From the NCBI GenBank assembly GCA_964036045.1, contig OZ038391.1:45271621-45335620 (forward strand): DNA of 64,000 nucleotides. Reading direction: 5' to 3'. The notes beneath the pieces are model-generated. The model was not told the origin of the DNA, did not search any database, and saw nothing but the letters and a program-made list of their open reading frames with translations. A program made the translations under genes and the position numbers. Positions 9,252 to 53,164 of this stretch are shown here, piece after piece. The stretch's first letter is position 1; each line of letters opens with the position of its first letter. This DNA is from Eutreptiella sp. 'Long Island Sound 2002'. Its lineage: Eukaryota > Euglenozoa > Euglenophyceae > Eutreptiales > Eutreptiaceae.

Positions 9252-11024
9252 CGGCACGGAACACGCCGTGCATGGGGTTAGTGGACCGGAGACCGGTTGT
9301 ATGCCGTAACCTGGCCATGGGGTTCTGGGTACCGCTTCAGTACTGGAGCGCCCAGGACTCCGCGTGGAAGAAGCACTGGGGTCCGCATCAGGGTTTGATG
9401 TGGATCCATTGCCCCCGATGGGACATTCCAAGGGCGGTAGCGAAGATTTGCAAGTACCGCTCCAAGGCAGTGCTGGTTGTTCCTATGGGATGCACCGAGG
9501 AGGAAAGCACCCGAGATTGGGTGGTCTCATTGACCAACATGACCTTAAACAAGGTTGTCCTACCGGCTGGAGAGAGTGTCTATCAGGACGCTAAGGGACA
9601 GCCCATGCCACCCCAGAGATGGCCAACGGAATTCCACTACGTGGATGGGGGCCTTGAACAGGCCGACACCACGGACTTCGTGTGTGTCAACCGCATCATA
9701 GCGGAGCCATGGCGGCAATGCTTTGCGGTTTCCCCTGTTGACATGGGAGAATCGGAGGACCCCCTCACTGAAGAGGAGTTGGATCTGGTTCAGGGGTATA
9801 TGGATCAGCCCTTTCACGACTGGGGAAGCCAGCGTGAGGGCAAGGGCCAGGACAAAGCCTGGTGGGAAGTGGACTCGATCGTCTCTGGTTCCTATGATGG
9901 GAATACTTTCGTAAAGAGGGTGCTGGACCACATGTCCAGCCAGGACGAGCCCCTCGGCGGCAACCCACCCACCTACGGCGACCTGTTCCGAGGCAAGACC
10001 AGAGGTGGCCCTTCGGGCCACCTGGGAAGACTACCTGAGCGGAAACCGAGTGCGGTCGCTACCCATCAAGTAAGCTCAGTGGTCCAGGTGCCCGGAAAAG
10101 CCAAGGCGGAGTCCGATGAGTGCCCCAAGATCCAGGCATTGAGGGCCAGGCTGAAGCAGAAATATGGTGAAACCTTCTTCAGCGGAGAACCTTTGTTTCT
10201 CCCACCGGTGCGTGGACCGTATGGCGAGGCCAAGATACAACTGAAGCAGGACCCCCGTGGGAATCCACACCGGGAGTTCGCCCTGAGGGGCGAGAGGAAG
10301 GAGGCCATGGAGAAGATCCTCCGTGATTTCATCGAGAGAGGCTGGCTTGAGCCGTGCCACTCCGAGTGGGCCTCCCCATGCTTCGTCGTCCCCAAGTAGG
10401 TGGCCGGTGAGTGGCGGCTCGTGGTCGACTACCGCAGCCTAAACGCCCAAACGCAGCATGACAGCTATACGCTGCCCCTCATTGAGGACATGCTGCAAAA
10501 ACAACACCGGCGGAGGATCTTCACGGTGATCCACCTGAAACATGGTTATCATCAGATGCCTCTCGCCGAGGAGTCCCGTGCCTGCACAGCCATGAGCACC
10601 CCACTTGGACCTCTCCAGTGAAAGGTGATGCCCATGGGCGTTACCAACGGCAATGCGGCTTTTCAGCGGATGCTGGAGAACCTGCTTGAGCCGGTGCGTG
10701 ACTGTGCGGACCCCTTTGTGGACGACGTGATCATCGCGTCAGGGGACCCCAGTATGAGCTATGAGGAGCTCCTGGAGGCACATGAGAGGGACGTCACCCG
10801 ACTGCTGGACCTTCTGGTTCGGCACAAACTCACGGGCAGCAGTGACAAGACCACCATTGCGGTAAGCGAGGTGGTCTTCGCTGGCCACGTAGTTGGGAAC
10901 GGGCAGCGGAAGACCATACCTGGCAAGGTGGCTGCGATTGAGCACTGGGAAAAGCCCAAAACGGTCTCTGAGCTACGGGCGTACTTGGGGTTCTGCAACT
11001 ACTACTCGGGGTATATCAAGATGT
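9252..11024 (+). pseudogene. pol: LTR-B pol, left fragment: linker and N-terminal reverse transcriptase
   Basis: Reading starts abruptly at the border of LTR-A. The linker matches LTR-A pol. The reverse transcriptase start (ERGWLEPCHSEWASPCFVVP) is followed by a TAG at 10397-10399 where LTR-R has a lysine codon. RT continues with LVVDYR, then a TGA at 10619-10621 where the right-hand duplicate has TGG. The FVDD catalytic motif lies near 10717-10728. The fragment stops at YSGYIKM, where N1 is inserted. The last 628 bases (10397-11024) are duplicated at 33391-34018. Confidence 0.85.
10397..11024 (+). repeat. Left copy of 628-bp target duplication flanking N1
   Basis: Matches 33391-34018 base for base in length, with roughly 15-20 substitutions by eye. 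The repeat ends exactly at the two ends of N1. It is a piece of LTR-B reverse transcriptase, so it is a duplication of target sequence and not an element terminus. The TAG at its start is in both copies and so predates N1, whereas the TGA at 10619 is only in this copy. Confidence 0.85.
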
Positions 11025-13568
11025 GAGGTTCGAGGTTTGTTTTTTGCGGGTACTAGATGCCTTTTGGCCCCGGGGGGCCACCTGGTCGGGCCAGGTGATA
11101 TCCTCCCAACTGGGTCCTAGTGGGGGGCCCTCCAAGACGCACCTCCTGCCTGGTGGCGGAGTCCCCCGGGTTCACCGGGCTGGGAGCCCCGTCCTTCCCC
11201 GGCTTCCCCGTTTCGCCACTCCCCGGTCAGTGCATCAATTCGCAGCCGTGGCTGCGGGCGCTTACCCACTGCGTCACCCCCCTAATGCGTGGTCGCCCGG
11301 GGAGCCGGCGCCGCCGGGCCCGTGCTACTGGCTTGTCGCCAGTGGGACCCCCTTGGGCTGGCGCGGAGGCTGCCTAGCCTAGGGGTTGGGGCGTGGCGCT
11401 GTGCGCCACTACTGCCTTGGCGGGTACAGTGCCCCGTCAGTGTGTGCGCGGCGCTCGCGGCCGGTTTGGGGGGTTCGGGCCGGTACCTGGTGTTGTGTCT
11501 CTCTCGTTTCCCATTCCTGCCCCGCGTGTTCCGCGCTGCGTGTGGCGGGCCGTCCCGTCCGGGTGTCCCTTATCCTCGCTTGCTGGTACGCCATTCCACG
11601 CGGTCTGTGCGTTCCGCGCGCTCGGTCCGGTTGCCCTTCTGGTAGTCCCCGCGTGCCCCTTTCGTGTGTGTGCGCTCAAGCTCCCGCAGCGTCTGCCCCC
11701 CCCCCGTCTGGGTGGTGTGGCGTGCGCATCTCGCGTGGTCCCGGCACTGGGCGCTGGTAGGGCCGTTCCACGTGGTCCGTGCCCCTCCGCGTGTCCTGCC
11801 CCGGATCCTTGCTCCGTCTGGCGTGCTTGGGGGGGGGCGGTCCGGTCCCGGTTCCCCCCTACTGGGCTTGGGGTTGTGGGGGTGGCGGTAGGGGGTCCCC
11901 GGGGGGGGTGCCTTCTACTGTTGTGGGGGCGTCTGGGGTCAGGCGCTCCCCCTCCCCCGACTGCCCGTCCACTGGGCGGGCTGTTGGGGTCCGCGATCCA
12001 CGTGTTGTGGGCGCGGGCGTGCGGGTGTGGGGGCTCTTCCCTGTCCCCTCGGCCTGCACGCCCTGTGGGGGCTGCGCGCCGCGGGGCGGGTCCGTGGTGT
12101 TCGTGTGCCGGGGGGCGGGCGGGGCGGGGGGGCGTGCGCCGTACCCCCCCGTTTGTGCGGCCGGGGGGGGGCCTGTAGGGCGGGGGGTCGCTCTGCCTCA
12201 TTCCGTCCCTCTGCCTTCCCTGGGCAGGCAACAAAGCGGGTGTCACTGGCGTTGTGCTGTCCATGGGGGGCGTGGCCCCCCATATCACTCTTTTTCTGGG
12301 CGCGATCTGTGCGGCGTCCTGGCGCGCTGGCGCGGGCTCGCTTGTTCTCCGCGGCCCCCATGGGAGCCGGCGGCTGGGGCGTGGGGGCGGGTCGCGCTCC
12401 GGCTCCTCTCTTTGGCGGGGGGGGGACCATCCCCCCTGCCTCGGGAGGTGGGGGCTGGGTCCCCCGTGGCTTGCGGGCCGGTGGGGGGGTGGGGGGTGGT
12501 GCGTCGCGCCGCGGCCTCCCTGCTCTGCTTCTGGGTGGCGGCCTGCGGTACTCAATCCTGGCCCCCCTCGTGTCGTCGGCGCACTGCTTTCCGGCGTGCG
12601 CGTGCGGTCGGGGTCGCGGGGCCGCCCAGGGGTGGGGGCAGGTGAGGGGCGGCCCCTGGACCGCTCCCCCGGGGGCCCCTGCAGACCTGAACCCCCCCTC
12701 TGCCCTCCCTGAGTGGGCTGTGGTCACGGGAGGGTCATGTGGGGCGCGGCCCCCATACTGTTCCGTTGCGCGCGTTGCTCCGGCACGCTGGTGTGGACGC
12801 TGCGTGCCCCCCCGGGGTATACTCGTGCCGTGGGGGTTGCCGCGCGGCCGCGGGCGTCGGCCGCGGTCCGGTCGGCCGCCGACGGGTCAGTGCGGCGGGG
12901 GGGGGGGGGGAGGGGGGGGGAACCCCCCCGCCCTGGTTCGCGCGCTTGTCTTCCCCGGGCCGGCCTCTGATAAGGCCGCTCCGTTTGCGCCGTCCTGGGC
13001 GTCGCCGGTCCGCTGTCGGCCGCCAGCAGGCAGGGCGTGTGGGCGCCTGCCTCGGCCGTGGTGCCCCCGCACCCCGGGTGCAGCGGCCTCTTCGGGGGGG
13101 GTGTGGGGCCGCCGTTTCTTCGGTCCGCCTCCGTCCGCTCTTGGGCCTGAGTGGGAGGGGGGGGGGGAGTGGGGGGGGCCCTCTGGTCCCCTGGCGACGC
13201 CTCCTGACGGCCGGGGGGGGGGCGGCGGCATGGCGGTCCCGGCCCCGGGGGCCAGCCATCGGCTGGGGGGTCGCACCCTTCCCCCGCCCCCCTCTACCTA
13301 GAGCTGGACCCTCGTGCAGGCCCTCGCTGGGGCCCCTCATCCCCACGGCCGCCGTCGCGCGGCGCTGGCCGGCCGGGGGCGGCCGCGAGGGTTAGCGGGC
13401 AGCGGTTAGCGGGCTGTCAGGCAGCTGGTTCCCCCCCGCGCTCGTTGTCTCCGCCGTCCCTCCCGCGGGAGGTCGCGCGCTCTCCTGCGTCATGCCGTAC
13501 CGTGGCGGGGGCGTGGGTCGGGGGGCCCAGCTCCCCCCCCCACTTTCTCGCGTCCGCCGTCTGGGCCC
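11025..13568 (-). other. N1 3' noncoding region with hairpins and C-runs
   Basis: About 2.5 kb after the last ORF. It is very GC-rich, and in the sense strand it is dominated by runs of C up to 13 bases (seen as G-runs on the plus strand, for example 12897-12920). Numerous long ORFs in all frames here are composition artefacts. Near the 3' end lies a stretch resembling a tRNA box A and a small GCAGCC/GGCTGC hairpin (about 11225-11290 on the minus strand). The terminal hairpins are at 11079-11097 and 11066-11079, followed by the tail. The same region is found in N2 (37412-39806) and N3. Confidence 0.7.
11066..11097 (-). other. Two adjacent 3'-terminal hairpins of the N family (N1 copy)
   Basis: Sense strand: CACCTGG-loop-CCAGGTG (7-bp stem), immediately followed by GGCCCC/GGGGCC. 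They lie 30-40 bases before the 3' end in N1, N2 (39728-39759) and N3 (51053-51084). By analogy with LINE 3' stem-loops they may be recognised by the reverse transcriptase. Confidence 0.65.
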
Positions 13569-14564
13569 TCAACTGCGCCGTTGCTTGTGTGGGGGCTGGG
13601 GCTGTGGCGGCGGCGGGTTGCGCCAGCGGTAGCGCCAGTGGGCGAGGGCGCTGCGCAAGGCCCGGGGGAGCCAGTTGTTGGTGTCCGCATCCGTGATGCG
13701 GAGCACCGCTCCCCCTTCCAGAAAGGCCGGCCACGTCGGCTCCCTGTCGGGCCACGCCGCCCGGATCACTGACCTGAGGACCCTCTCATGGTCCTCTGGG
13801 GCAGCCCACCCCCCCGGGGGTACCTCTCGGTTTCCTCCGTCTCTCCGGAGGAGCACGGCATTGAAGGGCCGGTTCCTCAACCCCCTGGTGGTCCCCTGGT
13901 TGGCCCAGCAGAACCACCCGTACACCTCCCCCACCAGGGGGAGGGCCTCCTCCCCCAGAGGATCCGGGACCGTGCTCCAGTCCCGGTCCCACGGCCGGGC
14001 CCCCTCTGCCCCTCGCGCCGGCTCCCCTCGCTGCCCCTGTGCCTGCGGCGCCGATGCCGCGCCCCGCCCCCCCTCCGCCGAGGCCATCCGCGCTGGCTCC
14101 GCTCTCGGCGCGGGGGGGGCTGGCTGGTGCTGGGGTCGTGGGGGTTGGGGGGGGACGAGCTCCCCGGCGTCAGGGTCGATGTTGTAGAGGTGGTGGTGGT
14201 GGTAGTGGTGGTGGTGGTGGTGGTGGGTGTGGTGCGCCGGCATCTGTTGGATGCCGGGGGGGATGCACCTCACCGGCTGCACGTCCGGCTGCGGGGGCGC
14301 CCCGCTCCCCGCCCCCCTCCCTTCGGCTTGCCCTCCCTCCCGGGCTCCCATGCCCCGTCCCGTCTGTCCCTTGTGGCCCGCGGCGCCCTTGCCCTTGCCC
14401 TTGGGCCCCTTTCCAGCCCCCTGCCAGTGCCGCGGGTCCCGCCCCCCGTCCCCCACGCCCTGGCCCGCCTGCTCGCCCACCGCCCCTCGCCCCGCCCCCT
14501 GCACCTGGGCTCCCTGCCCGCGCCCCTGCGCGCCCTTCCCGTGCCCTGGTCCCTTCCCGGCCCC
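13569..14564 (-). CDS. N1 ORF E: Gly/Lys/Gln-rich, His-tract protein with conserved C-terminal domain
   Basis: The frame is open from just after a TAG (14567-14565) to the stop at 13569. It has no clear ATG at its beginning. In order it shows a Gly/Gln/Lys/Arg-rich basic segment, the motif PPGIQQMP, a long His tract encoded near 14170-14225, YNIDPDAGEL, a Pro/Ala/Glu linker and a globular ~120-residue C-terminal domain (WDRDW, VYGWFCWANQG, VPPGGW, ITDADTNNWLPRAL, HWRYRWR). It ends with PPHKQRR. The same protein occurs in N2 and N3, and a related C-terminal domain ending PPHKRRR occurs in N4. The frame also continues upstream through the TAG into the downstream part of ORF D, so D and E may be one protein. 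A nucleic-acid-binding, ORF1/Gag-like role is a guess from composition. Confidence 0.55.
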   Translation of the reverse strand, partial: GAGKGPGHGKGAQGRGQGAQVQGAGRGAVGEQAGQGVGDGGRDPRHWQGAGKGPKGKGKGAAGHKGQTGRGMGAREGGQAEGRGAGSGAPPQPDVQPVRCIPPGIQQMPAHHTHHHHHHHYHHHHLYNIDPDAGELVPPQPPRPQHQPAPPAPRAEPARMASAEGGRGAASAPQAQGQRGEPARGAEGARPWDRDWSTVPDPLGEEALPLVGEVYGWFCWANQGTTRGLRNRPFNAVLLRRDGGNREVPPGGWAAPEDHERVLRSVIRAAWPDREPTWPAFLEGGAVLRITDADTNNWLPRALRSALAHWRYRWRNPPPPQPQPPHKQRRS

Positions 14565-14567
14565 CTA

Positions 14568-15871
14568 CCCTGAGTCGCGCCGTTCGCTGCCTGCGCTCTG
14601 CTCCCCCCCGCTGCTGCGCCCTTGCTCCTTGCCGCGCCAGCCCTGGCCTGCTCCTTGCGCGCGCTCTTAGGCACTTTCCCTGTCACCTCCTGCCCCCCGC
14701 TCCGCGCTCCCGTGGCTGGCACGCAGCTCTGCCTGCGCGCCCTCCCCTCCTTCCTGGATCACGCGCCGGGCGTCCTGCTGTCGTTGCAGCTGCGGCAGCG
14801 TGACGCCCGGCGGCGAGCGCTCGGGCGCCGGGGGGCGTACGTGCCTCGACCGCCCCGGGGGGAAGGGCTTGGGGGGGAACTGCTTGGGGGGGCTGTTGTG
14901 GGTGTGGGTGGGGTTGGCGTGGGCGCGGTCCTTCGCGCTCTCCCTGCCCACTGCTGCTGCGGCGGCGGCCGCCGGCGAGGCGCCCGTGGCCCGTGCGGGG
15001 CCCTTCCCCTGCCTTGCGGCGTGCTGGGGGTTTCGGCGTGGCCGGCCGAGGTGGTGGCGCGGCCCGCCAGGGCCGCGGTCGCAACCCCTCGCGCGCCCTC
15101 CTCGCTCTCCTCCGCTGGTGTGGCGGCCGCCGGCGAGGCGCCCGTGGCCCGTGTGGGGTCCGTCCCCCGCTTTCGCGGCGTGCTGTGGGTCGCGACGTGG
15201 CCGGCCGAGGCGGTGGCGCGGCCCGCTGGGGCCGCGGTCGCAACCCCTCGCGCGCCCTCCTCGCTCTCCTCTGCCGCTGTGGCGGCCGCCAGCGAGGCGC
15301 CCGTGGCCCGTGCGGGGTCCGTCCCCCGCTTTCGCGGCGTGCTGGGGGTCGCGGCGTGGCCGGCCGAGGCGGTGGCGCGGCCCGCCGGGGCCGCGGTCGC
15401 AACCCCTCGCGCGCCATCCTCGCTCTCCTCTGCAGCTGCGGTAGCCCTCGGCGATGCGCCCGGTTCCTGCGCCGGGGCTACCCCCCGTGTCGGCGGCGTG
15501 CCGGGGGCCGCGGTCGGGGCCGCGGCCTGGCTTGCTGGGGCTGCGGTCTCCACTTCCTGCGCGTCTGGGGCCCCCTCCCGGGGCGGGGCGGCAGGGCTTG
15601 CTGCTTGGGCGGCGGGGGCGGTCACCTCGGCTGGCTCAGGTTCCCGGGCCGGCGGCGGCGGCCCGACCAGCACCGCCGCCTCCGCCAGCCTCCGCTCCTC
15701 GCGCTCCGCGAGGGTCTCCCCCGTCCACTCCGGGGAGGCTGGGGAGCGGGAGCGGGACCGGCGGTGGTGGCGGTCGTCCCGCTGGGGGGAGCCATCGGAG
15801 TCTGCCATCACTGTTATCCTGGTAGGCATGCGTGGTGGCAGGCGCGCCCTTCCCACTACCTCCTGGTGCAT
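14568..15871 (-). CDS. N1 ORF D: SR-motif protein with 159-bp tandem repeats, frame-disrupted
   Basis: The ATG at 15871 overlaps the stop of ORF C as TGATG. The N-terminal region has an RSRSRSP motif and an acidic LAEREERRLAEAAV helix. Next come about three copies of a 53-residue Ala/Glu/Pro/Ser repeat, period 159 bp (about 15480-15000, checked at the recurring GCGCGCCCTC near 15091, 15250 and 15409). Comparison with N2 suggests a one-base indel near 15020 that moves N1 out of frame. In the correct frame the sequence continues with GRESAKDRAHANPTHTH and TLPQLQRQ...ARRVIQEGGEGAQAEL, then a TAA near 14668 where N2 has CAG. The frame-1 ORF runs on to a stop at 14759. It is low-complexity and unrecognised. 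Confidence 0.5.
15000..15480 (-). repeat. 159-bp coding tandem repeat in N1 ORF D
   Basis: About three units of 159 bp, each encoding an Ala-rich acidic 53-residue repeat. The same array is present in N2 at about 35520-35990. Confidence 0.75.
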
Positions 15872-16458
15872 CAGTGCCGTGCCGTGGGCAGTGCCGTGTG
15901 ATGCTCTGCGGGGGGGAGGGGGGGAGGGGGTGGGGGGCCGGCTGTGGCGTCAGCCCCGCACGGCCGGGGGCCGGCGGCCATCCATCGGCATTGAGAGGGG
16001 AGGCGGGGGAGCCACGCGGCCCACGCGTCGCGCCACAGCTCCCAGTCTGGGGCGGGGCCCAGGGCCCTGAGCCCCCAGGGGTCGTCGGGTGGTGTCGGGG
16101 GGAGCCGCACTAGGTGGACCCCCGTAACGGAGGTGACCTCCTGTGTTCGCAGGAAGGTGTGTACTCCGTCCCGCGCCGCGGGCGCCGGGAGGGGGGGGCG
16201 GGGTACGGGTGCTGCCCCATAGAGGTGGGTGGGGGTGATCCCCAGGACCCGCCCTGGGTCCCCGCGGGTCGCGACGACGAGGAGGAGCAGGGGGGTGCCA
16301 GGGCACTCTTGCCAGAGGACCTGCCCCCTGTGGTGGGCACCCCTGGTTCTGGAGAGGGGGGGGGACAGGTCTGGGGTAGCCCAGCCGCGGGGCGTGTGCG
16401 TCGCCGGCGGGAGGGCGGGGCACCAAGTGGGCTCCCTGGGGAACGCCTCGCATACCAT
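15871..16458 (-). CDS. N1 ORF C: unknown 195-residue protein
   Basis: It starts at an ATG in a strong context (GCCATGG), three bases after the TAA of ORF B and in the same frame, and ends in a TGA that overlaps the ATG of ORF D (TGATG). The protein has a compact N-terminal part containing a hydrophobic LLLLVVATRGDPG strand and an EVTSVTGVHLVRL strand, then WELWRDAWAAWLP, and a Pro/His-rich end. I do not recognise a family. The tight stop/start spacing suggests translation coupled to its neighbours. Confidence 0.6.
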   Translation of the reverse strand: MVCEAFPREPTWCPALPPATHTPRGWATPDLSPPLSRTRGAHHRGQVLWQECPGTPLLLLVVATRGDPGRVLGITPTHLYGAAPVPRPPLPAPAARDGVHTFLRTQEVTSVTGVHLVRLPPTPPDDPWGLRALGPAPDWELWRDAWAAWLPRLPSQCRWMAAGPRPCGADATAGPPPPPPLPPAEHHTALPTARH

Positions 16459-16461
16459 GGC

Positions 16462-17103
16462 TTAGGGGGGGTTAGGCCTGGTGCCGTCGTACAGCGAGTT
16501 GGTCAGCTGGGGGCGGGCGGATGCCTCGTCCGCGCCTTCCACAAACACCGTGATCTCGCCCACCTCCAGGTCCTCGTCCGGTGGGTGTAGAAGGTGGAGC
16601 GACGCATCCAGCTCGGACACTCCCCCCGGGTACGTGGCCCGCGCCTGGTTCAGGTACGGGGCCGCGTCCCCGGGGTAGCGCGTCCTGAGGGCGTGCAGCA
16701 GGGCTGGGGCGCTGCTGCGGAGGGACATGGCAGACCCTGCTCCCGTCAGCCGCAGGGTGTCCCCCATGGACAGGGGCTGGCCCGACCGGTTGGACTCGCA
16801 CCACTCCATCCAGTGCCCATAGAGGGCCGCCTCCAGGCTGATGAGCCCCGGCTGGACGGCGTTCACGATCCGGTGCATCGCCGGGAGCAGCGTAAAGCCC
16901 CCCGCTCCGTTCAGGGCGCGGACGGCCGGGAGGGCGGTCTCGTTGAGGAAAGCCCTCGCACTGCCCGTCAGGTCACACCGTGCGGCAGTGTGCGCCTCGT
17001 GCGCCTCCGCCACCGCGTCCGTCACCAGGCCCCGGACGGCCGCCTCGTGCGCTTTGCGGCGGGCCCTGGTGTGTCCCGGCCCATCACCCCGTCGGCGTGG
17101 CAT
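16462..17103 (-). CDS. N1 ORF B: unknown 213-residue protein
   Basis: True ATG at 17103, about 40 bases after the stop of ORF 2. The gap contains a pyrimidine-rich stretch ending CAG. The N-terminus is basic (PRRRGDG...RARRKAH) and is followed by predicted helices (AAVRGLVTDAVAEAHEAH, FLNETALPAVRAL) and an acidic C-terminal segment (PPDEDLEVGEITVFVEGADE). Composition is normal for a globular protein, unlike ORFs D and E, so it is likely a real gene. No family was recognised. Its stop TAA is followed by GCC and the ATG of ORF C in the same frame. Confidence 0.65.
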   Translation of the reverse strand: MPRRRGDGPGHTRARRKAHEAAVRGLVTDAVAEAHEAHTAARCDLTGSARAFLNETALPAVRALNGAGGFTLLPAMHRIVNAVQPGLISLEAALYGHWMEWCESNRSGQPLSMGDTLRLTGAGSAMSLRSSAPALLHALRTRYPGDAAPYLNQARATYPGGVSELDASLHLLHPPDEDLEVGEITVFVEGADEASARPQLTNSLYDGTRPNPP

Positions 17104-17142
17104 GGTACTGCGGGCTCTGCAAAGGGCGGCGGCGGGTGGGGG

Positions 17143-17808
17143 TCAGGGCGCGAACACGTGCGACAGGTGCGCAACGGATGTGGGGTCCCGCAGGTGCACG
17201 TGGATCAACAGAAGGGCAGCGCCCGCGGGGCCCGCGCGTTCGTGTGAGGGGGTGTGTGCCCCCTCGATGCGCCGGTGCAGGGCCTCCTCCGCTGTGCGCC
17301 TGCGCGGGCCTGCGGGAGGCTCGGGCCAGGGGCACGCGGCAACCTGGGCGCACCGCGCGCACCTGTTGGCGCCTGTCGATGCTGCGGAGGACACCGTGTC
17401 ACATTCTCCGCAGAGCCGGCAGGTGTGTGGGAGGTGGGAGGGCGGCGACCAAGGGGCGAGATGGCGGAGCCAGAGGTCGTCCCAACTCTGTCGGAGGGGG
17501 TCCCGGATCTCCAGCAGGCGGGCGCGGACGCGGCGCCGGTAGTCCCTGCCAAGCGTCTTCCGCTGGACCTCCCGCCACGTGTCGTCGGGGAGGATCCCGT
17601 GGTCGTGGAAGGCGGCGATGAGGTCGTCCCACGCCGGGCGGGGGTGCCCATGGGGGGGGGTTGCCATGTACACGTGGCGCCCGGTGAGGTGACGCGTCAG
17701 CGCATCCCATCGGCACCCGTTCGCGGTGTCCCGGTGGAGGAGGGCCAGCAGGGTGCCGTCCGCAACTGCCTCCCATCCCACTCGCAGCCCTTCGCAGCCG
17801 TCCAGCTC
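17143..17808 (-). pseudogene. N1 ORF 2, C-terminal part (split by LTR-R)
   Basis: The coding frame continues in register from 30557-31057 once LTR-R and one copy of its 4-bp duplication are removed. This part has a helical region (DALTRHLTGRHVYM, WDDLIAAFHDHGILPDD) and a Cys-rich zinc-ribbon-like motif CRLCGEC...CARC around 17410-17360, and it ends HLSHVFAP. Residues upstream of 17808 in the same frame come from LTR-R and are not part of the gene. Function unknown; a nucleic-acid-binding or structural role is possible from the zinc motif. Confidence 0.65.
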
Positions 17809-17812
17809 CTGG
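17809..17812. repeat. 4-bp target duplication CTGG, left of LTR-R
   Basis: CTGG lies next to the 3' LTR end and is repeated at 30557-30560. It restores the ORF 2 frame of N1 when collapsed. Confidence 0.8.
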
Positions 17813-19679
17813 TAAAGAAGGTCCCTACCAGGACCGGCCCACGCTGTGCCCCTTCCGCCTGTTACCCCTGCTGATTTACTCCGGATCAACGATTGCATTC
17901 CTCAAATACCAGGGTCCAAAATCCAAAAATATAGAAAGTGTAATCCTCCTTCAACCCTGAACAGCAACCTGATCCCACAAATACAGCAATAACCCAATCC
18001 ACAATCCAATCCAAATGGCGGGCTTCCGTTCAGCACATCGATTGTCTCACGATGGCGGGCATGTACAAGAATTGCACCAAGGAAGAAAGCCCTGAAATTG
18101 GCATATGAACACAAATAAAGCAAAGTTGGGGAAAGAGGTAAACATACACATTCACAGCCATAAACCCCTCATTCCCTGGACTCAAGACCTTCCCTTGACT
18201 CACCAACATATTGCCCTGAACCAGGTCAAATGAAATGGCTGAATGCCATGTGTCACAAGTCAATACACAAACCCCAAAAATGTGTTCACTCCCAAGCCTC
18301 AAAATCCTAGCCCAATAGGGGAGGTGGCGTGTCATGGCCTAGAGTGGCACTCAGGACCATGCCCTACCCTGACATAACCTTGGTTGGACTTGGAGTCGAT
18401 TGGGCTTGGAGAACTGCCCCATGCTGATGACCTCACAACATGGCAAAATCAGGCAAATCACACCATTATGCCCAAAAGTCAATTATATACCCAAAAATGC
18501 ATACGGCAAATATCCAAATGCTCCATGCATGTGTCAAACCGGAAAGTAGTATACAAGGGTGATATAGACCAAAGGTGGATGCCCAAGAATATCCAATCAT
18601 TGGCTCCGAAACCTCTCCGATTATGTACATGGCATGCTTCACAAGTCAGCTCATGAGTTGGAGACCTAATTTTGTGAGGCCTCGTGTGCCAAGCCAAAGT
18701 GACCACGTGATCCAGCATATGGTGTGGTACAACACCGAAGCATATGCCAACATATAAGCAACATACCATAGTTCACGGATCTCTAGGCACTTTACTGTTA
18801 GCCGACCAGTTGAGCACATAAAACACAAAAATGAGCATAAAATGAGGTCAAAAACATGAAAATATGTCCAAATACAAAGTTGTCATGATAATATATCTCT
18901 ATGCTCACCCATGATATCCGCTCATGGTTCAATACACAAATGATTGGAACCATTTGCGAACCATTCCCCCACTTGGATCCCCAATCAGGCGCATGGAGAT
19001 ACCTTCGCCACCCATATCTACATGCCCCATGAAAATGGGAGTGCACTCATGGATCTCTTTGCGAAACATACCATGAGCAATACATATGCCGTAGACTTAG
19101 TCTAGCGCTTTGAATTCCACAATTGGGACATGGGCAAAGCCCTTGTCACGTGTGGCTCCCCATCTCTTTGGCCACACAAAGATATATAACATGGGCGTGA
19201 GCATATCGAAACACATACCATGCATATAACACATACCCTCAAAAGTGGCTCCCACCATGATATGCCATGCCCCTCCATGGACATAACTTCACGTTAAAAA
19301 TGCGTAGGAACCCAAGGAAAGTATCCATGCAACGCCAACACTCATGCGGTACACTCGAAAGTCGCAATAAAATATTCGGTTGCACGGTCCAAGAGTTATA
19401 TATCACTTTATACCCTCTTGACCCTTATCCCTTGCTACAGCGGGCATGTGTACACACCAAAGGTTGATTCCTGATATTCTGATATATAAATCTCAGCTGG
19501 CGGCGCTTCGGTACTGAATATGGCCGCTCATAGCCGGAATGGCCAAACCTATCACACCATCACTTCAGGTTAGATCAGGTGGATGGGAGAGTATGATATC
19601 AGCCAATGGCGGCTTGCCGGCACATAGATACACACCCCAAGTGACCCCAAGATGGCCACGGGGGTCCGAACCAGCTTCA
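17813..19679 (-). repeat. 3' LTR of LTR-R (1.87 kb, with a 491-bp deletion)
   Basis: Runs from TGAAGC (T at 19679) to CTTCTTTA (ending 17813). Relative to the 5' LTR it lacks 29850-30340 (491 bp) and a 34-bp AT-rich simple-sequence tract near 28505. Together these exactly explain the length difference of 525 bp. The deleted part includes the conserved palindrome. Confidence 0.9.
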
Positions 19680-19690
19680 CCCCCCTTCTC
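19680..19690 (-). other. Polypurine tract of LTR-R
   Basis: GAGAAGGGGGG on the minus strand lies directly before the TGAAGC start of the 3' LTR. This is the expected primer for plus-strand DNA synthesis. LTR-B has a similar GGAGGGGGG followed by TGAAGC. Confidence 0.85.
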
Positions 19691-33389: not shown

Positions 33390-33390
33390 G

Positions 33391-43280: not shown

Positions 43281-43889
43281 CCCACGTGCCCGCGCAGCCA
43301 AGACAACGCCGCCACACCAGCTCCAGCACGCACGGATCACCAGGGAAAACGCGCGCACACGCCCGGTGCCCGAACCCGCACCCTTGTTCTCGCTACTTGC
43401 AGGACCCAGCATCATACGCCCGCCCCCGAAGCCCAAGACCCTCCGCCGTCTCCCACAGCCCTCTCCTCCGCCTCCGACTCCACAACCTCCACCACCACGA
43501 CCACCTCATCCACCGCCACAACCACGTCCTCATCCAGCACTCCACCCCCAAGGCCGCGGGGGACACCCCCCAAGCGGGCCCCCAAACACGCCCCCACCGC
43601 GAGCAACCCCGCCGCCACCAAGGCCCACGCCCCGACGAGGCCTACACCCGCGACCCAGCCGAAACCCAAGACCGCCGCCAAACAGCCACCCAAACCCGTC
43701 AGCGCGCCACGACCGCAACCCGCAGCCAAGCTCAAACCCAAGTCCAAACCCGGCGCCACGACGACAGCGCAAATCCGGCCCCCCGAGGACGTCCTCTTTG
43801 ACATTCGGCCCCAGCCGTCCCAGGCCCGAAGGCAGCAGCGCCCAGCGCGGCGCCCCCCCACCAGCACCGACGCCACCGCCACCACCTTC
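43281..43889 (+). other. N4 low-complexity Pro/Thr/Arg/Gln-rich stretch
   Basis: Open in more than one frame because of its CCX-rich composition. I cannot decide the coding frame. It probably encodes the disordered middle of the N4 protein. Confidence 0.4.
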
Positions 43890-44735
43890 ATGGTGGAGCG
43901 CGCCGCGGCCGAAGCACGACGCACCTCGTCCCGCCACCTCTCAAAGCCCGCACCCCAGGCCCACAGACCGCCCCCGACCAGGCCAGAACAACGCCAGGGT
44001 CCGCCAGCAGCGTCCCCGCCCCCCTACCAACCCTCGATGTCAGCCCACATACAGCGCATGCCCCACTACCACCGCTGCCGCGAGTCCCCGCCCAACCCCG
44101 AGGCGGAGACCGTGCGCGCACACCCGCGGGTCCACATCCGCGCGCGCCCCCACTCCCCACGCACCCCCACGGAACAGGACTACGAGGAATCCCCCAGGCC
44201 CGCCACCGCCACCGGTCCCCACGACCCCGTCACACCCACCCACGCCCACTCCTCCGCCCAAGACAGCAGGCCCGCCCAGGAACAGTGGTGGCAGCGCTGG
44301 ACCTACACGCAGCTCTGGGAGCTGCGAAAGTGGGCCCGGGGAGAGCCCTTCCTCGAGGGCCTGGTCCATCGGCCCCGCAAGGGGTCGGTGGAGAACTGCC
44401 GCCTCCGGCCGGCGGGGGGGTGGATGCCGCAGGCCGCATGGGAAGCCATGCTGGCCGATGCGCTCCACCCCCTGGGAGTCCGGCCCCGCAACCTCCCCGC
44501 GCCCCAGGACCACCCGTATGTCCCCAGGCGCCTGCGGGAGACCCTCCAGGAGACGCAGCGGGACGGCATCCGCCTGTGGGACATCACCCAAAGCCCAGCC
44601 CCGCACAAACACACCCCCTCACCACCCCACAAGCGTCGGCGCACCGACACCGGCGACACCCACAGCACCCCAGGAGCCCTGCGCACCACACAACACGACG
44701 TGCCTGACCCCCCGGCCAGCGGCGCCGCCACCTAA
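43890..44735 (+). CDS. N4 C-terminal protein domain related to ORF E
   Basis: An intact 281-codon frame. A disordered N-terminal part is followed by a globular ~120-residue domain (EQWWQRWTYTQLWELRKWARG, FLEGLVHRPRKGSV, RLRPAGGWMP, PRRLRETLQETQRDGIRLWDI) and a basic end PPHKRRRTD, then a short tail. The order 'Leu/Arg-rich strand, GGW, helix, Pro-Arg-x-Leu-Arg helix, PPHKRRR' parallels the C-terminus of ORF E in N1-N3. The basic end could be a nuclear-localisation or nucleic-acid-binding tail. It may be only the 3' part of a longer ORF. No known family. Confidence 0.55.
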   Translation: MVERAAAEARRTSSRHLSKPAPQAHRPPPTRPEQRQGPPAASPPPYQPSMSAHIQRMPHYHRCRESPPNPEAETVRAHPRVHIRARPHSPRTPTEQDYEESPRPATATGPHDPVTPTHAHSSAQDSRPAQEQWWQRWTYTQLWELRKWARGEPFLEGLVHRPRKGSVENCRLRPAGGWMPQAAWEAMLADALHPLGVRPRNLPAPQDHPYVPRRLRETLQETQRDGIRLWDITQSPAPHKHTPSPPHKRRRTDTGDTHSTPGALRTTQHDVPDPPASGAAT

Positions 44736-45195
44736 CCCCGTTACCCAGCAAAGCACCACCACGGGGCGCCACGCCAGGCCCCGCCCAGAAGTCACCAAAC
44801 GAACTGGACGCCGAAGGACGCCAACGCACACGACAACGGGCACCACTACGCCCAAAGGCACCGAACCCAGGCCCGCTACCGTCGCAACCGCCTAACCGAG
44901 CCAGAACCCAAGCACAAATCAAACCCGAGCCACACCCCGAAACCGCTAACCCTTGACTCCTAGCCAGGCCCGCCGAGGGAACAACGTAACCATAGCCCAC
45001 ACCCACAGCCCACACAGCCGCCTAACCAGCCAGCTCCAGAAGCAGAGAGACACCTCACCAAACCCACCCTGACCCAAGCCCGTGTACATCAGGACGCGCG
45101 AGCCGCAGCCCTGGGGCGCGACCGCCGCCACAGCACCGACGACACACGCCAGAGGACACAACGCTATTGCACCGCCGCACCAGCTGCCCATGCCT
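44736..45195 (+). other. N4 3' noncoding region, upstream part
   Basis: About 460 bases, CA- and C-rich, with no supported gene. Confidence 0.5.
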
Positions 45196-45983
45196 GTGCC
45201 TGCAGTGTACGCGCGCCCCTGTCTTTCTTTTTTTTCTCCAAAAAAACAAAAAAAAAAGAAAAAAAAACACACACAAAAAAAAAAAAAGAAAATTAGGGGG
45301 GGAGGAAGAGGGACACAACCACCCATGGCACACGCGCACCGCACACAGCGCGCACACCGGTGAACGGGAGCCAAGTGGCCCAGGACACCGCACATGCAAC
45401 ACAACACACCGAGCGAGCACACCAGTGAATGGGAGCCAGGTGGCCCAGGACACCGCGGACACAACACAGCAAACCGCGCGGGCACACCGGTGAACAGGAG
45501 CCCAGCGGCCCAGGACACTGCACACACGTAGGGCGGTCGAGGGACAGGAAAGAACCAATACCCCATTGGTCGGACGCACTGGGGCGACCCAGCCGACCCA
45601 CCGGGCCAGTGGCAGGAGCGGTACTCCAAGGCCACTGGTCCGATCCCGGCCAGGCTGCATCGGGGACCATGGCAAAGGTCACCCGGAGCCATGGAAGCAA
45701 CCGGTGACAGGCGAGCCGGTACACAGTCCAGGAGGGGGTCACCTGCCACGCAGAGTGGCCCCGCAACTCAAGCCACAAGGGTGAGGCGGTCGTACCGTAG
45801 ACAAGCGGGAGCAATACCCCTTGTGGTGAGAGATACTCCACACGGCTGGGCAGCCCCCAGAGCTGCCGCCCAAAGGAGGGGGCATCTGGCCCTACCCATG
45901 GACACATGTGGGGACACCCTCCCACCTGGGACACATGGACCGGGTGGCCGCGACAATGCCTTCCCAAGCACATGCCGGAGCGG
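45196..45983 (+). repeat. Left copy of ~785-bp target duplication flanking N3
   Basis: Repeated at 51131-51909. The length differs (788 versus 779) only in T/A homopolymer tracts near 45230-45293; substitutions are about 1% by eye. It is N4 3' sequence and includes three 65-bp tandem units. Confidence 0.88.
45356..45550 (+). repeat. 65-bp tandem repeat, three units, in the N4 3' region
   Basis: Units start near 45356, 45421 and 45486 (ACCGGTGAACGGGAGCC type) and contain GGCCCAGGACAC. Also present in the duplicate at about 51287-51480. Confidence 0.75.
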
Positions 45984-46971
45984 GGCCGGGGAGGGGCCAG
46001 GGCACGGGAAGGGCGCTCAGGGGCGCGGGGAGGGTACCCAGGTGCAGGGGGCAGGACGAGGGGGGATGGGAGAGCGAGCGGGCCAGGGCGTCGGGGACGA
46101 GAGGCAGGACCCGCGACACAGGCATGGGACTGGAAAGGGGCCCAGGGGCAAAGACAAGGGCGCCGCGGGCCCCAAGGGACAGGCGGGACGGGGCATGGGA
46201 GCCCAGGGAGGAGGGCGGGGCAAAGGGAGGGGGGCAGAGGGCGGAGCGCCCCCGCAGCTGGACCTGCAGCCGGTGAGGTGCATCCCCCCCGGCATCCAAC
46301 AGATGCCGGCACACCACACCCACCACCACCACCACCACCACCACCACCACCTCTACAACATCGACCCTGACGCCGGCGAGCTCGTCCCCCCCCAACCCCC
46401 ACGACACCAGCACCAGCAAGCCCCCCCCGCGCCGAGGGCGGAGCCGGCGCGGATGGCCTCGGCGGAGGGGGGACGGGGCGCGGCATCGGCGCCGCAGGCG
46501 CAGGGGCAGCGAGGGGGGCCGGCACGGGGGGCGGAGGAGGGCCGGCCATGGGACCGGGACTGGGGCGCGGTCCCGGACCCGCTGGGGGGGGAGACCCTCC
46601 CCCTGGTGGGGGAAGTGTACAGGTAGTTGTGCTGGGCCAACCAGGGGACCTCCAGGAGGTCGCGGAACCGGCCCTTCGATGCCGTGCTCCTCCGGAGGGA
46701 CGGAGGAAACCGAGAGGCACCCCCGGGGGGATGGGCGGCCCCAGAGGACCACGAGAGGGTCCTCAGGTCAGTGATCCGGGCGGCGTGGCCCGACAGGGAG
46801 CCGACGTGGCCGGCCTTCCTGAAAGGGGGAGCGGTGCTCCGCATCACGGATGCGGACGCCAACAACTGGCTCCCCCGGGCTTTGCGTAGCGCCCTCGCCC
46901 ACTGGCGCTACCGCCGGCACAACCCGCCGCCGCCGCAGCCCCAGCCCCCACACAAGCGGCGGCGCAGGTGA
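45984..46971 (+). pseudogene. N3 ORF E, interrupted by a stop
   Basis: Homologue of N1 ORF E: Gly/Lys/Arg-rich start, PPGIQQMP, His tract (about 46318-46350), YNIDPDAGEL. The TAG at 46624-46626 replaces the Trp codon of VYGWFCW. The rest of the C-terminal domain (WANQGT, PPGGW, ITDADANNWLPRAL) follows in the same frame to the stop at 46969-46971, ending PPHKRRRR. Confidence 0.65.
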
Positions 46972-47065
46972 AGGCCCAGACGGCGGGTACGGGAGGGTGT
47001 TGGGGGGGGGATGGGCCCCCCGACCCACGCCCCCCCCCACGGTATGGCACGACGTACGAGGGCGC

Positions 47066-49250
47066 GCCACCTCCCGCGGGAGGGAGTGCGGAGGCAACGA
47101 GCGCGGGGAGGAACCTGCTGCCCCGCAACCCGCTAACCACTGACCGCTAACCCTCACGGCCACCCCCGGCCGGCCAGCGCCGCGCGACAACGGCCGGGGG
47201 ATGAGGGTCCCGGCGAGGGCCTGCGCGAGCATCCGGCTCTCGATAGGGGGGACGGGAGAAGGGCGCGACCCCCTGGCCGATGGCTGGCCCCCGGGACCAG
47301 GACCGCCATGCCGCCCCCGCCCCTCCCCCCCGGCCGACGAGAGGCATCGCCAGGGGGCCAAAGGGCCCCCCCCAACCCCCCCCCCCCCGCACAGACCCGA
47401 GGGCGGGCGGGGGGGCGGCCCCCCCAGCCCCCCCCCCCCGCACCCACCACAGCAGGGGAGCCACAGGCGCGGCCCTCCGCCCCCCCAGGGCCGGGGGAGC
47501 GCCCCCCCCTCAGGAGGAACGGCGGCGCGATGAGGGCAACGGCGGCTGGACCTGCTGGCGCGAACCCACACCGGCGTGCCGGAGCAACGCGCACAACGGA
47601 ACAGGAGGGAGGCCGCGCCCCACATGACCCTCCCGTAACCACAGCCCACTCCGAGGTGACAGAGGGGGGGTTTCAAGTCAGATGGGGCCCCCAGGGGGGC
47701 GGTCCACGGGCCGCCCCTCAGCCCCCCCACCCCGGGGCGGCACTTCAGCCCCGACCGCACGCGCGCGCCGGAAGGGAGCGCGCCGGCGACACGGAGAGAA
47801 CCAGAAAGGAGTACCACAGGCCGCCGCCCGGAACGAGAGCAGGGAGGCCGCGGCGCGACACCCCCCCCCCCCGCCCCCCCACCGGCCCGCCAGCCGCGGG
47901 GGCCCCGGCCCCCGACCCCCGAGGCAGAGGGGATGGACCCCTCCCGCCCGAGAGGGGAGCCGGAGTGTGACCCGCCCCCCCGCCCCAGCCGCCGGCTCAA
48001 ATGGGGGCCGCGAAGAACAAGTCGGCCCACGCCTGCGCACCGGGACGCCGCGCAGATCGTGCCCAGAGAAGCCGGGTGGGCGCGAACCGGAATGGTATGG
48101 CGGGCCACGCCCCCCATGGACAGCACGACGCCAGTGACGCCCGCTTTGTTGCCTACCCAGGGAAAGCGGCGCGCCACCTCCCGCGGGAGGGAGTGCGGAG
48201 ACAACAAGCGCGGGGGGAAACCTGCTGCCCCGCAACCTGCTAACCACTGACCGCTAACCCTCACGGCCACCCCCGGCCGGCCAGCGCCGCGCGACAACGG
48301 CCGGGGGATGAGGGGCCCCAGAGAGTTGCGTGAGAATCCGGCTCTCGGTAGAGGGGGGCGGGGGAAGGGCGCGACCCCCCTGGCCGATGGCTGGCCCCCG
48401 GGGCCAGGACTGCCAAGCCGCCCCCCCCCCCCTTGGCCGACAGGAGGCATCGCCAGGGGACCAAAGGCCCCCCCCCCCTCCCCCCCCCCCCCCTCCCACA
48501 CAGGCCCGAGAGCGGGCGGGGGGGCGCCCCCCCCCCCCGCACCCACCCCAGCTGGGGAGCCACAGGCGCGGCCCTCCGCCCCCCCAGGGCAGGGGGGGCG
48601 CCCCCACCCACAGGAGGAACGGCGACACGGTAAGGGCAACGGCGGCTGGTCCTGCTCCCGCGAACCCACACCGGCGTGCCGGAGCAACGCGCACAACGGA
48701 ACACGAAGGAGGCCGCGCCCCGCATGACCCTCCCGTAACCACAGCCCACTCCGAGGGGACAGAGGGGCAGTTTGCAGGTCAGCTGGGGCCCCCAGGGGAG
48801 CGGTCCACGGGCCGCCCCTCACCCCCCCCCACCCCGGGGCGGCACTTCAGCCCCGACCGCACGCGCGCGCCGGAAGGGAGCGCGCCAGCGACACTGAGAG
48901 AGCCAGAAAGGGGTACCGCAGGCCGCCGCCCGGAACGAGAGCAGGGAGGCCGCGGCGCGACACCCCCCCCGAGGCAGGGGGGATGGGCCCCCCCCACCCG
49001 AGAGGGGAGCCGGAGTGTGACCCGCCCCCCCGCTCCAGCCGCCGGCCCACATGGGGGCCGCGAAGAACAAGCGGGCCCACGCCTGCGCACCGGGACGCCG
49101 CACAGATCGTACCCAGAGAAGCCGGGTGAGCACGAACCGGAGTGGTATGGGGGGCCACGCCCCCCATGGACAGCACAACGCCAGTGACGCCCGCTTTGTT
49201 GCATGCCCAGGGAAGGCAGAGGGACGGAAAGAGGCAGAGCGACCCCCCGC
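47066..49250 (+). repeat. ~1.1-kb tandem duplication in the N3 3' region
   Basis: A unit starting CGCGCCACCTCCCGCGGGAG near 47066 starts again near 48171. Both copies contain the same C-rich blocks and CTAACC-type motifs. N1 and N2 have one unit, so this duplication is specific to N3. Confidence 0.75.
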
Positions 49251-49256
49251 CCTACA

Positions 49257-50110
49257 GTCAGTCGGCGATCCGGCGGTGCTACTCTCCGCCTCTTACCCCT
49301 GTGCACGTCAGTCGGCGATCCGACGGTGCCGCACCCCACCCAGCCCCCTCCCCCCCTGTCCTGACCCCGTGCACGTGGACTGGGGCCTCCTGGCACGCGC
49401 AACACGCTTCACAACGCACAGCCCCACCCTCAGGACTGGATTCATAGCCGACAACACCCCTAAGTCGCGTAAGAGACTCCCGCGGCCCAGTAGTGAGAGC
49501 GTCGGTCTTCAATCGTCCAGTGCGGGGGTTCGATCCCAGGCGTTGGTGCTCCTGGGATCCCTGCACGTAGGGCTCTCTAGTTGGCGACGTGGGAACCACC
49601 CCCCCCTCCAGCAACTCGCGCCACCACCGATACCGGTGGATCGGGTGGAGGTCTCGTTCGTTTTCCCCCCCACCCTAGAAAAACAAAACACATGGGAGCC
49701 ACCCACCCCTGCAGCAGTGCGCACCGTCACCTGTACTCGAACAGGTCGACGGGAGGCCTCGTCCGGTATTCGAAGGGATCGGTGGGAGACCACCGATCCC
49801 GGGGTTGGAACCAGCTCCTTCGCGGCGCGCGCCTGGTGCGCTACCTCCGGGGCGGCTGCCTTCTGAGATACACTGGCAGCCAGATCACGGAACAAACGCG
49901 CCCGCAACCCCCTCCCCCTGTGCTAAGAGTAAGCCCGCGGTAGGGGTGCTCTGCTGGGCCATGAACCGGAACATTGGTGCACCACTCCAGCCACGGTCAC
50001 CCCAACCCCCCCACGCATCCCGCAGGGCTAAGCTCCGTGCGCATCAGGCTCGTCATGGGAATCCGGCGGACCGGCGCCTGGACACCAAGTCGACACCTCT
50101 CTCCCCCCCC
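49257..50110 (+). other. N3-specific block with tRNA-like promoter boxes
   Basis: About 850 bases not found in N1 or N2 at this position. A 22-bp motif containing CAGTCGGCGATCCG recurs twice (49259 and 49310). At 49482-49500 there is a box-A-like sequence and at 49527-49537 a box-B match (GGTTCGATCCC), spaced as in tRNA-type Pol III promoters. A perfect 11-bp hairpin with a GAGA loop lies at 49775-49800. It could be a tRNA-derived SINE or the remains of another insertion. I see no complete tRNA cloverleaf. Confidence 0.45.
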
Positions 50111-51130
50111 ACAGGAACAGAGCGGGGCCCCCACAACCGCACGCCCGCGCCTACAACGCAGACCCCGACAGCCCACCCAGTGGACGGGCAGTCGGGGGAA
50201 GAGGAGCGCAAGACCCCGAACGCCCCACGCAACGGTCGAAGGCACCCCCCCCGGGACGCCCTGCCGCCGCCCCCACAACCCCAAGCCAAGTAGGGGGGAA
50301 CCGGGACCGGACCGCCCCCCCCCCAAGCACGCCAGACGGAGCACGGGACCGGGGCAGGACACGCGGAGGGGCACGGACCACATGGAACGGCCCTACCAGC
50401 GCCCAGTGCCGGGACCACGCGAGATGCGCGCGCCACACCACCCAGCGGGGAGCGGACACCGCGAGAGCGCGAGCGCACACACACGAAAAGGACACGCGGG
50501 GACTACCAGAAGGGCAACCAGACCGAGCGCGCGGAACGCACAGACCGCATGGAATGGCGTACCAGCGAGCGAGGATAAGGGACACCCGGACGGGACGGCC
50601 CGCCACACGCAGCGCGGAACACGCGGGGCGGGAAGGGGGAAGAAGGGGAGACACAACACCAGGTACCGGCCCGAACCCCCCCGAATCGGCCGCGAGCGCC
50701 GCGCACACACAGACGGGACACTGCACCCGCCAAGGCAGTAGTGGCGCACAGCGCCACGCCCCAACCCCTAGGCTAGGCAGCCTCCGTGCCAGCCCAAGGG
50801 GGTCCCACTGGCGACAAGCCAGTAGCACGGGCCCGGCGGCGCCGGCGCCCCGGGCGACCACGCATTGGGGGGTCGACGCAGTGGGTAAGCGCCCGCGGCC
50901 ACGGCTGGGAATTGATGCACTGACCGGGGAGTGGCGAAACGGGGACGCCGGGGAAGGACGGGGCTCCGAGCTCTCTGAACCCGGGGGACTCCGCCACCAG
51001 GCAGGAGGTGCGTCTTGGAGGGCCCCCCACTAGGGCCCGGTGGGGAGGATATCACCTGGCCCGACCAGGTGGCCCCCCGGGGCCGAAAGGCGTCTAGTAC
51101 CCGCAAAATCAAACCTCAAACCTCAAACCT
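50111..51130 (+). other. N3 3' noncoding region, distal part
   Basis: Colinear with N2 38770-39806: C-rich, with the box-A-like stretch near 50873-50890, terminal hairpins at 51053-51084 and an (AAACCTC)n tail. No genes. Confidence 0.7.
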
Positions 51131-51909
51131 GTGCCTGCAGTGTACGCGCGCCCCTGTCTTTCTTTTTTCTCTCCAAAAAAGCAAAAAAAAAAAAAACACA
51201 CAAAAAAAAAAAAGAAAATTAGGGGGGGAGGAAGAGGGACACAACCACCCATGGCACACGCGCACCGCACACAGCGCGCACACCGGTGAACGGGAGCCAA
51301 GTGGCCCAGGACACCGCACATGCAACACAACACACCGAGCGAGCACACCAGTGAATGGGAGCCAGGTGGCCCAGGACACCGCGGACGCAACACAGCAAAC
51401 CGCGCGGGCACACCGGTGAACAGGAGCCCAGCGGCCCAGGACACTGCACACACGTAGGGCGGCCGAGGGACAGGAAAGAACCAATACCCCATTGGTCGGA
51501 CGCACTGGGGCGACCCAGCCGACCCACCGGGCCAGTGGCAGGAGCGGTACTCCAAGGCCACTTGTCCGATCCCGGCCAGGCTGCATCGGGGACCATGGCA
51601 AAGGTCACCCGGAGCCATGGAAGCAACCGGTGACAGGCGAGCCGGTACACAGTCCAGGAGGGGGTCACCTGCCACGCAGAGTGGCCCCGCAACTCAAGCC
51701 ACAAGGGTGAGGCGGTCGTACCGTAGACAAGCGGGAGCAATACCCCTTGTGGTGAGAGATACTCCACACGGCTGGGCAGCCCCCAGAGCTGCCGCCCAAA
51801 GGAGGGGGCATCTGGCCCTACCCATGGACACATGTGGGGACACCCTCCCACCCGGGACACATGGACCGGGTGGCCGCGACAATGACTTCCCAAGCACATG
51901 CCGGAGCGG
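51131..51909 (+). repeat. Right copy of ~785-bp target duplication flanking N3
   Basis: Matches 45196-45983. Begins right after the N3 tail and ends CCGGAGCGG, where N4 resumes. Confidence 0.88.
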
Positions 51910-52025
51910 CTCAAGAGGCACCTGACATAGGGCAGTGGGAGGGGCAGGACGTCCCCTTGGTAAGACCTTCTTCCTGCAATGTCAAAGGAGGCATCCCGAG
52001 CTCCCGAAGATACCTACCTACCTAC
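51910..52025 (+). other. N4 3' end with (CTAC)n tail
   Basis: The last 116 bases of N4. The tail repeat TACC/CTAC at 52011-52025 abuts the duplicated LTR-B segment. Confidence 0.7.
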
Positions 52026-53164
52026 CTCAGGCGTTTTCTCGTCCACCCTCCTGCATATGCCTTATCCTAACCGGGGCGTGGTTTGGCGCTCTATCCAGAG
52101 TGTGTTTACACGCCTATTTACCACGTTTATTGCTTATTTCTCTGTTCCCCAGGATATGTGCATCTGTATGTTAATTGTTGTCAGTCCATCACCGAGATAT
52201 TGACTGTTTTTCCCCCCGAAGGGATGCGAATCGGAATACGAAGGCGCCCTGATTCGCCGTGTACATGCTCTTACATAAGGTCCAGCCTGGACCAGTACCT
52301 AAGTACAGGTTCTTCTGTTTGAGTGCCCGTGATAACGTCTGCCCTAGTGGCTGTGATGTGCTGAGATCCTGATGGCGCCAGGCGGGAAGCCCAGTTGCCT
52401 GACTACACTCCCAGCGGTCCGCCACTGTCAGTCCCAGTGTGAGCCTACCGACTCGCAGACGCACTTGCAGTCGGGTGGCGACCTACGGTGTCCTGACCTC
52501 GGTCAGTCTGCCTGGGAAACTAGTGGTTTGAGGAGTCGACGCCTCCGCCCAGACTGCATTGGGACTCCCTCATGCATGGCCTTCGTGGTAATGGGGCGAG
52601 GGAAAAGACGGCCTTGATGCCCGATCCCTTATGGAGGAGCTCGTGCGGCTTTACCACTCTGGACTCGCGTCGTGGATATGGACATGGTGCGCCCAAGGAA
52701 GGACCCGTGGGGACTGTCCCCCAGACTGCGGCATTGGGAAGCCTGGGGTAGCCTGATGGATCTTTGTGGTCGCTTTCGACCTGTGGGACCACCTCAGTTG
52801 TCGTGTGACGCCTATGTTGGCCGTGTATGCCACTGCCACTATGGTGGTGACCGTCGCAGCCGGCACCCGGTGCGCCTGGTGTGAGTTAACGGGTCCTTTG
52901 GATGCCGAACAATCGCCGCCCGGACCCGGGACTTGATACTTGATACTATACTTGCAGTTACTAACAGCTACAGCACCGTACCTGTCTCACTGTGGGATTG
53001 TACTGGGCAGCCTAACCCGCAAATCGGCCTGATGTGAGGATCAGACACCCCCCCCCCCCTTCAGGGTATGGTCCTGGGTACCCGCTGCCATGCTTGGGTG
53101 TTATCGAGCCCCCCCCAGGGTTTGCTCTAAGGAGGGGGGTGAAGCGGTACCCAGAACCTATGGC
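52026..53164 (+). repeat. Right copy of ~1137-bp target duplication flanking N4
   Basis: Matches 41056-42192. The LTR-B 3' region, polypurine tract (53131-53139) and LTR start are repeated here, and this copy continues into the rest of the LTR. Confidence 0.88.
53131..53139 (+). other. Polypurine tract of LTR-B
   Basis: GGAGGGGGG immediately before TGAAGC. The same sequence ends at 42167 in the left duplicate. Confidence 0.8.

Follow-up and report, generated by a model that had tools for sequence, protein, structure and literature searches.

The window, by which we mean the whole stretch of 64,000 nucleotides analysed here, lies within contig C14 of a genome assembly whose 2205 contigs add up to 2.28 billion bases, and its G+C content is 62.6%; all the evidence presented below was taken from assembly sequence. 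Repeats within the window were identified by self-BLAST, followed by global alignment of each pair. Three elements, N1, N3 and N4, are each bounded at both ends by direct repeats, of 628, 782-791 and 1137-1139 bp respectively, with identities of 97.5-98.2% (Table 1). The two copies flanking N1 are identical at 612 of 628 positions; those flanking N3 (791 and 782 bp) share 775 identical positions, with 7 mismatches and 9 gaps, and those flanking N4 (1137 and 1139 bp) share 1118, with 19 mismatches and 2 gaps. The repeated segment, indicated as X, is in each case a piece of the target into which the element was inserted.

Table 1. Elements and target copies (X) in the window, with window positions
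Feature	Position	Strand	Remarks
X(N1), downstream copy	10397..11024		LTR-B reverse transcriptase region; RT motif inside
N1, 5'-truncated LINE copy	11025..33390	-	(AAACCTC)n 3' tail at 11025; LTR retroelement inside, about 17813-30557
X(N1), upstream copy	33391..34018		self-BLAST, global alignment
N2, N family	35438..39805	+	inserted in LTR-B integrase; duplication 0-5 bp
X(N4), upstream copy	41056..42192		according to the sequence-only reading, LTR-B 3' region together with the start of an LTR
N4, (CTAC)n 3' tail	42193..52025	+	own sequence 42193-45983 and 51910-52025; N3 and second N3 target copy between
X(N3), upstream copy	45193..45983		N4 3' region; contiguous single copy in L051
N3, 5'-truncated N-family LINE copy	45984..51130	+	(AAACCTC)n at 3' end
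X(N3), downstream copy	51128..51909		first 3 bases ambiguous with tail
X(N4), downstream copy	52026..53164		self-BLAST, global alignment

The sequence-only reading of this DNA, an earlier inspection made without database searches, had reported these three pairs and had equated the borders of the repeats with those of the elements. Both observations hold, as the pairs were recovered where it had placed them, with each downstream copy starting at the end of the tail and each upstream copy running up to the opposite end of the element. It had also suggested looking for sites with one copy of the target, and paralogous sites of this kind were found for all three elements by joining the upstream flank, one X and the downstream flank and matching the product to paralogs. 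Across the N1 join, a single-X paralog is present in the window itself (22046-23140, 66.5% identity); the N3 join is matched by L051 (94.7%), and the N4 join by L014 (88%) and L040 (85%), both gapped. Because these paralogs are contiguous across the joins, the related target copies hold a single X, as expected of the state before insertion. The three cases in the window are thus all real, but a fourth element, N2, which belongs to the N family, is without a long duplication: its site within LTR-B is intact in the flank of L024, and any overlap there does not exceed 5 bp.

Other features of the window include an LTR retroelement nested in N1, with LTRs at 17813-19680 and 28165-30557. These share about 96% identity, and the right one contains some 490 bp of additional sequence (29849-30340). 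Towards the end of the window an (AT)85 run (61903-62072) and a 189-bp tandem repeat of four units (62794-63554) were observed.

Identity of the elements

N1, N2 and N3 belong to one family, being 88-93% identical over their longest matches, and the 5' part of N1 (30560-33390) recurs in the neighbourhood of other N copies, those on C5, C11, C14 and C1 being examples. The open reading frame at 31058-33472 on the minus strand of N1 corresponds to the C-terminal region of a reverse transcriptase (RT) protein and shows a weak zf-RVT match. It has 168 database relatives, and RVT_1 (PF00078) was present in some among the 120 listed. The close relatives P0108, P0112 and P0140 carry this domain. The APE-type endonuclease domain PF03372 scored above the cut-off in P0140 and P0171, just below it in P0125, and below it in P0135, P0235 and P0237. 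Since the relatives that reach further upstream encode both endonuclease and RT (P0140 and P0171, with the endonuclease of P0125 just under the cut-off), the N family is classified, on protein similarity, as a LINE (non-LTR retrotransposon) with an APE-type endonuclease and a long 3' part. The PDB sequence matches comprised both R2-type and LINE-1 ORF2 proteins. From the stop of the N1 reading frame to the tail there are about 7 kb, and the protein of relatives like P0003 extends some 400 amino acids beyond that stop; Pfam scans of the reading frames within the N 3' part gave no match. The tails consist of (AAACCTC)n, with an end point within the unit that varies among copies.

At the upstream junction of all 12 copies compared (N1 and N4 excluded), longer copies go on with different sequence, which indicates 5' truncation. 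Where a copy has no long repeat, the junction was set at the point where its match to the element stops. Little or no microhomology was seen at the upstream junctions when judged by eye. Two further origins of the flanking repeats were considered and rejected. The repeats are not LTRs of the N elements, because no match is seen between those of one copy and those of another: the pairs in the window and those of L030, L036 and L046 (see below) are mutually unmatched in comparisons with the window and the sampled loci, and the N elements are thus without terminal repeats of their own. Transduction of 3' or 5' sequence was rejected in five of the six long cases, in which both the upstream flank with X and X with the downstream flank are contiguous in paralogs.

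N4 was described in the sequence-only reading as a member of a second, related family. This relationship was not borne out, as N4 and N1-N3 gave only short GC-rich blastn matches and none in the translated comparison. The 816-amino acid reading frame of N4 had no Pfam match, and RT was not found in it. As judged from the copy in the window, which may be truncated, N4 resembles a LINE only in its (CTAC)n tail and its long duplication.

Target duplications across the genome

A 300-bp query from the 3' end of N yielded 1101 first-look candidates in the genome, of which 40 were scored. Flanks were examined for 29 N copies outside the window, 26 from the scored list together with L007, L012 and L018, and these comprise ten resolved copies, one complex copy (L053) and 18 without resolved junctions. 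Six of the 18 lie in tandem-array contexts (L018, L026, L027, L031, L040 and L043) and in another six the element is longer than the sequence examined (L025, L038, L039, L041, L044 and L052), so that all twelve were left out of the tally. Four more have an LTR-type edge and are uninformative as cases of "no duplication": in L024 and L035 an LTR retroelement ends at the upstream edge, and in L048 and L047 the edge looks like such an end by eye. The remaining two, L007 and L042, are equally uninformative, because they share 962 bp of upstream sequence and their edge is therefore not a truncation.

Some of the copies set aside have features of their own. The sequence common to L007 (1-964) and L042 has no match to N1-N3, and these copies perhaps represent an N subfamily with a different 5' module. 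The LTR-type edge of L024 (and, by eye, L048) is also the end of an inverted pair of about 2 kb in the window (6391-8436 / 54094-56144, 88% identity), which is read as an LTR-type element inserting into N elements. In L027 and L031, runs of a 71-bp unit resembling a short N-internal stretch lie directly upstream of the element match, a minisatellite expansion. The downstream flank of L044 (C10:13029211-13029410) falls in a dispersed satellite, which on C14 and C18 has copies spaced by about 1.1 kb.

Among the ten resolved copies, three have a long duplication, of 667-668 bp at L030, 1749 bp at L036 and 505 bp at L046. Four have a short one: 6-8 bp at L037, where the target is an N4-family copy, about 13 bp at L012 (read by eye in a repeat-rich stretch), 15 bp at L051 and about 27 bp at L050. 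In the other three (L028, L029 and L049) no repeat was found beside the truncation point within the flanks examined, which reach about 2.3-4 kb. The duplications reported for the window therefore recur elsewhere, which confirms long duplications as a recurrent outcome, yet not as the rule. The sequence-only reading had named short or absent duplications in most other copies as evidence against its interpretation, and this is what seven of the ten resolved copies present; within the window, too, N1 and N3 have long duplications and N2 has 0-5 bp. No resolved N copy has a duplication between about 30 and 500 bp, a gap that may be due to chance as the copies are so few.

The six long cases are found on four contigs (N1, N3 and N4 on C14, L030 on C8, L036 on C3 and L046 on C9), and in all six the borders of the repeats coincide exactly with the ends of the element. 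A single contiguous X was found in paralogs for five of them, N1, N3, N4, L036 and L030; L046 lacks such a paralog in the set. As a control, 50 sequences from 49 loci were compared by blastn (E 1e-20, best four hits per locus), and the only repeats of at least 120 bp, more than 1 kb apart and outside tandem arrays were those bounding N elements at L030, L036 and L046. The complex copy L053 (C4) differs in structure: the 58 bp that end at its 5' junction are found again downstream, 269-326 bp past the 3' junction, and the sequence preceding the downstream 58-bp copy is different. It may represent filler from template switching, or else a long duplication of which part was deleted.

Origin of the paired repeats

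We consider it probable that N elements integrate as LINEs by target-primed reverse transcription and that, in a minority of insertions, the new copy is joined to the target where its second strand is broken 0.5-1.7 kb away, so that the target in between is duplicated. Ectopic or allelic recombination could produce the same arrangement if two copies of a repeat each carried an N copy, one at point P and the other at point Q, the exchange leaving a chimeric element flanked on both sides by the segment P..Q as X. This is conceivable insofar as the targets of N1, N3, N4, L030, L036 and L046 are all repeated sequence and N copies are as numerous as the candidate count indicates, but the two X copies should then not be each other's closest relatives. 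Patterns at informative sites, scored for the paired repeats against only two or three paralogs each, group the pair for N3 (14:0:1), for L036 (27:0:1) and, with three pairs of paralogs, for N4 (4:1:0, 6:0:0 and 12:0:1); for L030 they do so weakly (3:0:0), and the rank of its partner repeat, row 4 of the 40 scored, counts against the pairing. Of the 40 places scored for the L046 segment, three match it as a whole, and these fall within 33 kb at the L046 locus, whereas the match stops at about base 412 in the other 37, of which 34 carry the remainder some hundreds of bases further on. Since the whole segment is found only at its own locus among these places, its repeats are local duplicates, contrary to what recombination between dispersed copies would give. 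N1 is the case that agrees with such an exchange, as its repeats do not resemble each other more than they do LTR-B copies elsewhere: in the 40 rows scored for the downstream repeat (self included), the upstream one ranks at row 25, below 23 of these LTR-B copies (98% vs 97%), and the nearest-relative test thus lends the duplication reading no support here. This ranking can also arise if N1 inserted soon after LTR-B. The reciprocal deletions of 0.5-2 kb that recombination would leave were not noticed, which is an incidental observation and not a systematic count. Taken over the six cases, we regard recombination as an unlikely source of the repeats.

The remaining alternatives appear less likely still. 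Pre-existing direct repeats, such as the LTRs of one retroelement, could mimic a duplication if the sequence between them was deleted at insertion and overlapping remnants were left on both sides, and the LTRs of a single element would likewise be sisters. Such an event can be envisaged at L030, the target of which has same-strand relatives in LTR-like pairs 4-48 kb apart, so that a deletion between two LTRs could imitate a duplication, and at L046 a third X copy (99%) lies 26 kb away. Against this, the target of N1 in the RT region and that of N3 in the 3' part of N4 are single contiguous copies in their paralogs; the L036 target runs from the internal part of a retroelement to about the first 12 bp of its LTR and is single-copy in paralogs as well, and the relatives of the L046 segment do not occur in close pairs except at the L046 locus. 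We therefore think deletion improbable as an explanation. An assembly artefact, with allelic or mis-joined copies of the target set on both sides of an element, would agree with paired repeats that differ by 1-4%, as alleles could. It would nevertheless have to place borders exactly at the element ends in every long case, on four contigs and with differing divergences, and we give it very little credence.

Proposed mechanism

Under the duplication model, an N element, as a LINE with an APE-type endonuclease, would insert by target-primed reverse transcription. At many sites the second strand would be cut within about 0-30 bp, giving a short duplication or none. In a sizeable minority, the second strand would instead be broken 0.5-1.7 kb from the first nick and the 5'-truncated cDNA joined there; the intervening strands would be separated by a helicase, by strand-displacing synthesis or by a passing fork, and the filling in of both separated strands would duplicate up to 1.7 kb of target. 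We infer the order of the nicks, the manner of strand separation and the involvement of host factors in placing the second cut. The widely staggered cuts or extensive strand displacement suggested by the sequence-only reading are close to this scheme, in that a far-off second cut, combined with separation of the strands, fits best, but not as the general mode of integration.

A broader possibility, which we advance tentatively and with some doubt, is that LINEs in the germline routinely integrate by a second mode as well, with kilobase target duplication, which would account for about a third of insertions and result from a host-placed distant cut as in human cells deficient in nucleotide excision repair (NER). 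Such a mode would provide a means of dating insertions and would seed tandem arrays, and it might perhaps extend to unrelated elements such as N4.

Comparison with known LINE systems

The target duplications of LINEs typically measure a few to twenty bases, usually 5-20 bp. Long LINE duplications have already been reported from cultured cells (PMC5223499, PMC2666801), and events of this type are therefore known. It is the frequency in a natural genome that stands out and appears unusually high; in the literature searched, the coverage of which was partial, no report of frequent kilobase LINE duplications in a natural genome was found, though such reports may exist.

A close parallel is L1 in NER-deficient human cells, where the median duplication was 1495 bp compared to 14 bp in complemented cells, and duplications longer than 100 bp were present in 4 of 7 inserts in XPA-deficient, 21 of 23 in XPC-deficient and 22 of 28 in XPD-deficient cells (PMC5223499). 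As in N, duplications of hundreds of bases to kilobases are mixed there with short ones, deletions occurring as well, and the authors propose that a distant, unrelated nick is used (PMC5223499). Those insertions were of an engineered L1 and took place in mutant cultures (PMC5223499), whereas the N copies belong to another LINE family in a natural genome. For ZfL2-2 in chicken DT40 cells, the categories described resemble those of N, namely long and short duplications, blunt joining and truncation, but the long duplication was rare, with one of 25 inserts in wild-type cells showing a 1228-bp duplication compared to three of ten resolved N copies (PMC2666801). Truncation combined with long duplications also likens the N copies to 5'-truncated L1s in HeLa cells, which are described as often having extremely long duplications, deletions or short duplications (PMC2912911). 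The survey of genomic human L1s in the same source was restricted to duplications of 5-30 bp and called for the study of longer ones (PMC2912911).

The site of the second-strand cut and the joining of the 5' end form the least understood half of LINE integration. A single family with two outcomes, short and kilobase-sized, in one genome is a natural counterpart to the cases known from mutant or cultured cells, and the two classes allow truncation points, sites and host repair genes to be compared. Long LINE duplications can also be used to date insertions; under the routine mode proposed above, they would do so as LTRs do.

Possible tandem growth after insertion

Long duplications, being direct repeats, would also permit tandem growth, and some segmental or tandem duplications may be LINE-made. 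At L036 together with L045 (C3:102945552-102957552), the order is X-El-X-El-X, with three X copies of the 1749-bp target, and both elements have an identical truncation point. This is as expected if an X-El unit was doubled by unequal exchange between the long repeats.
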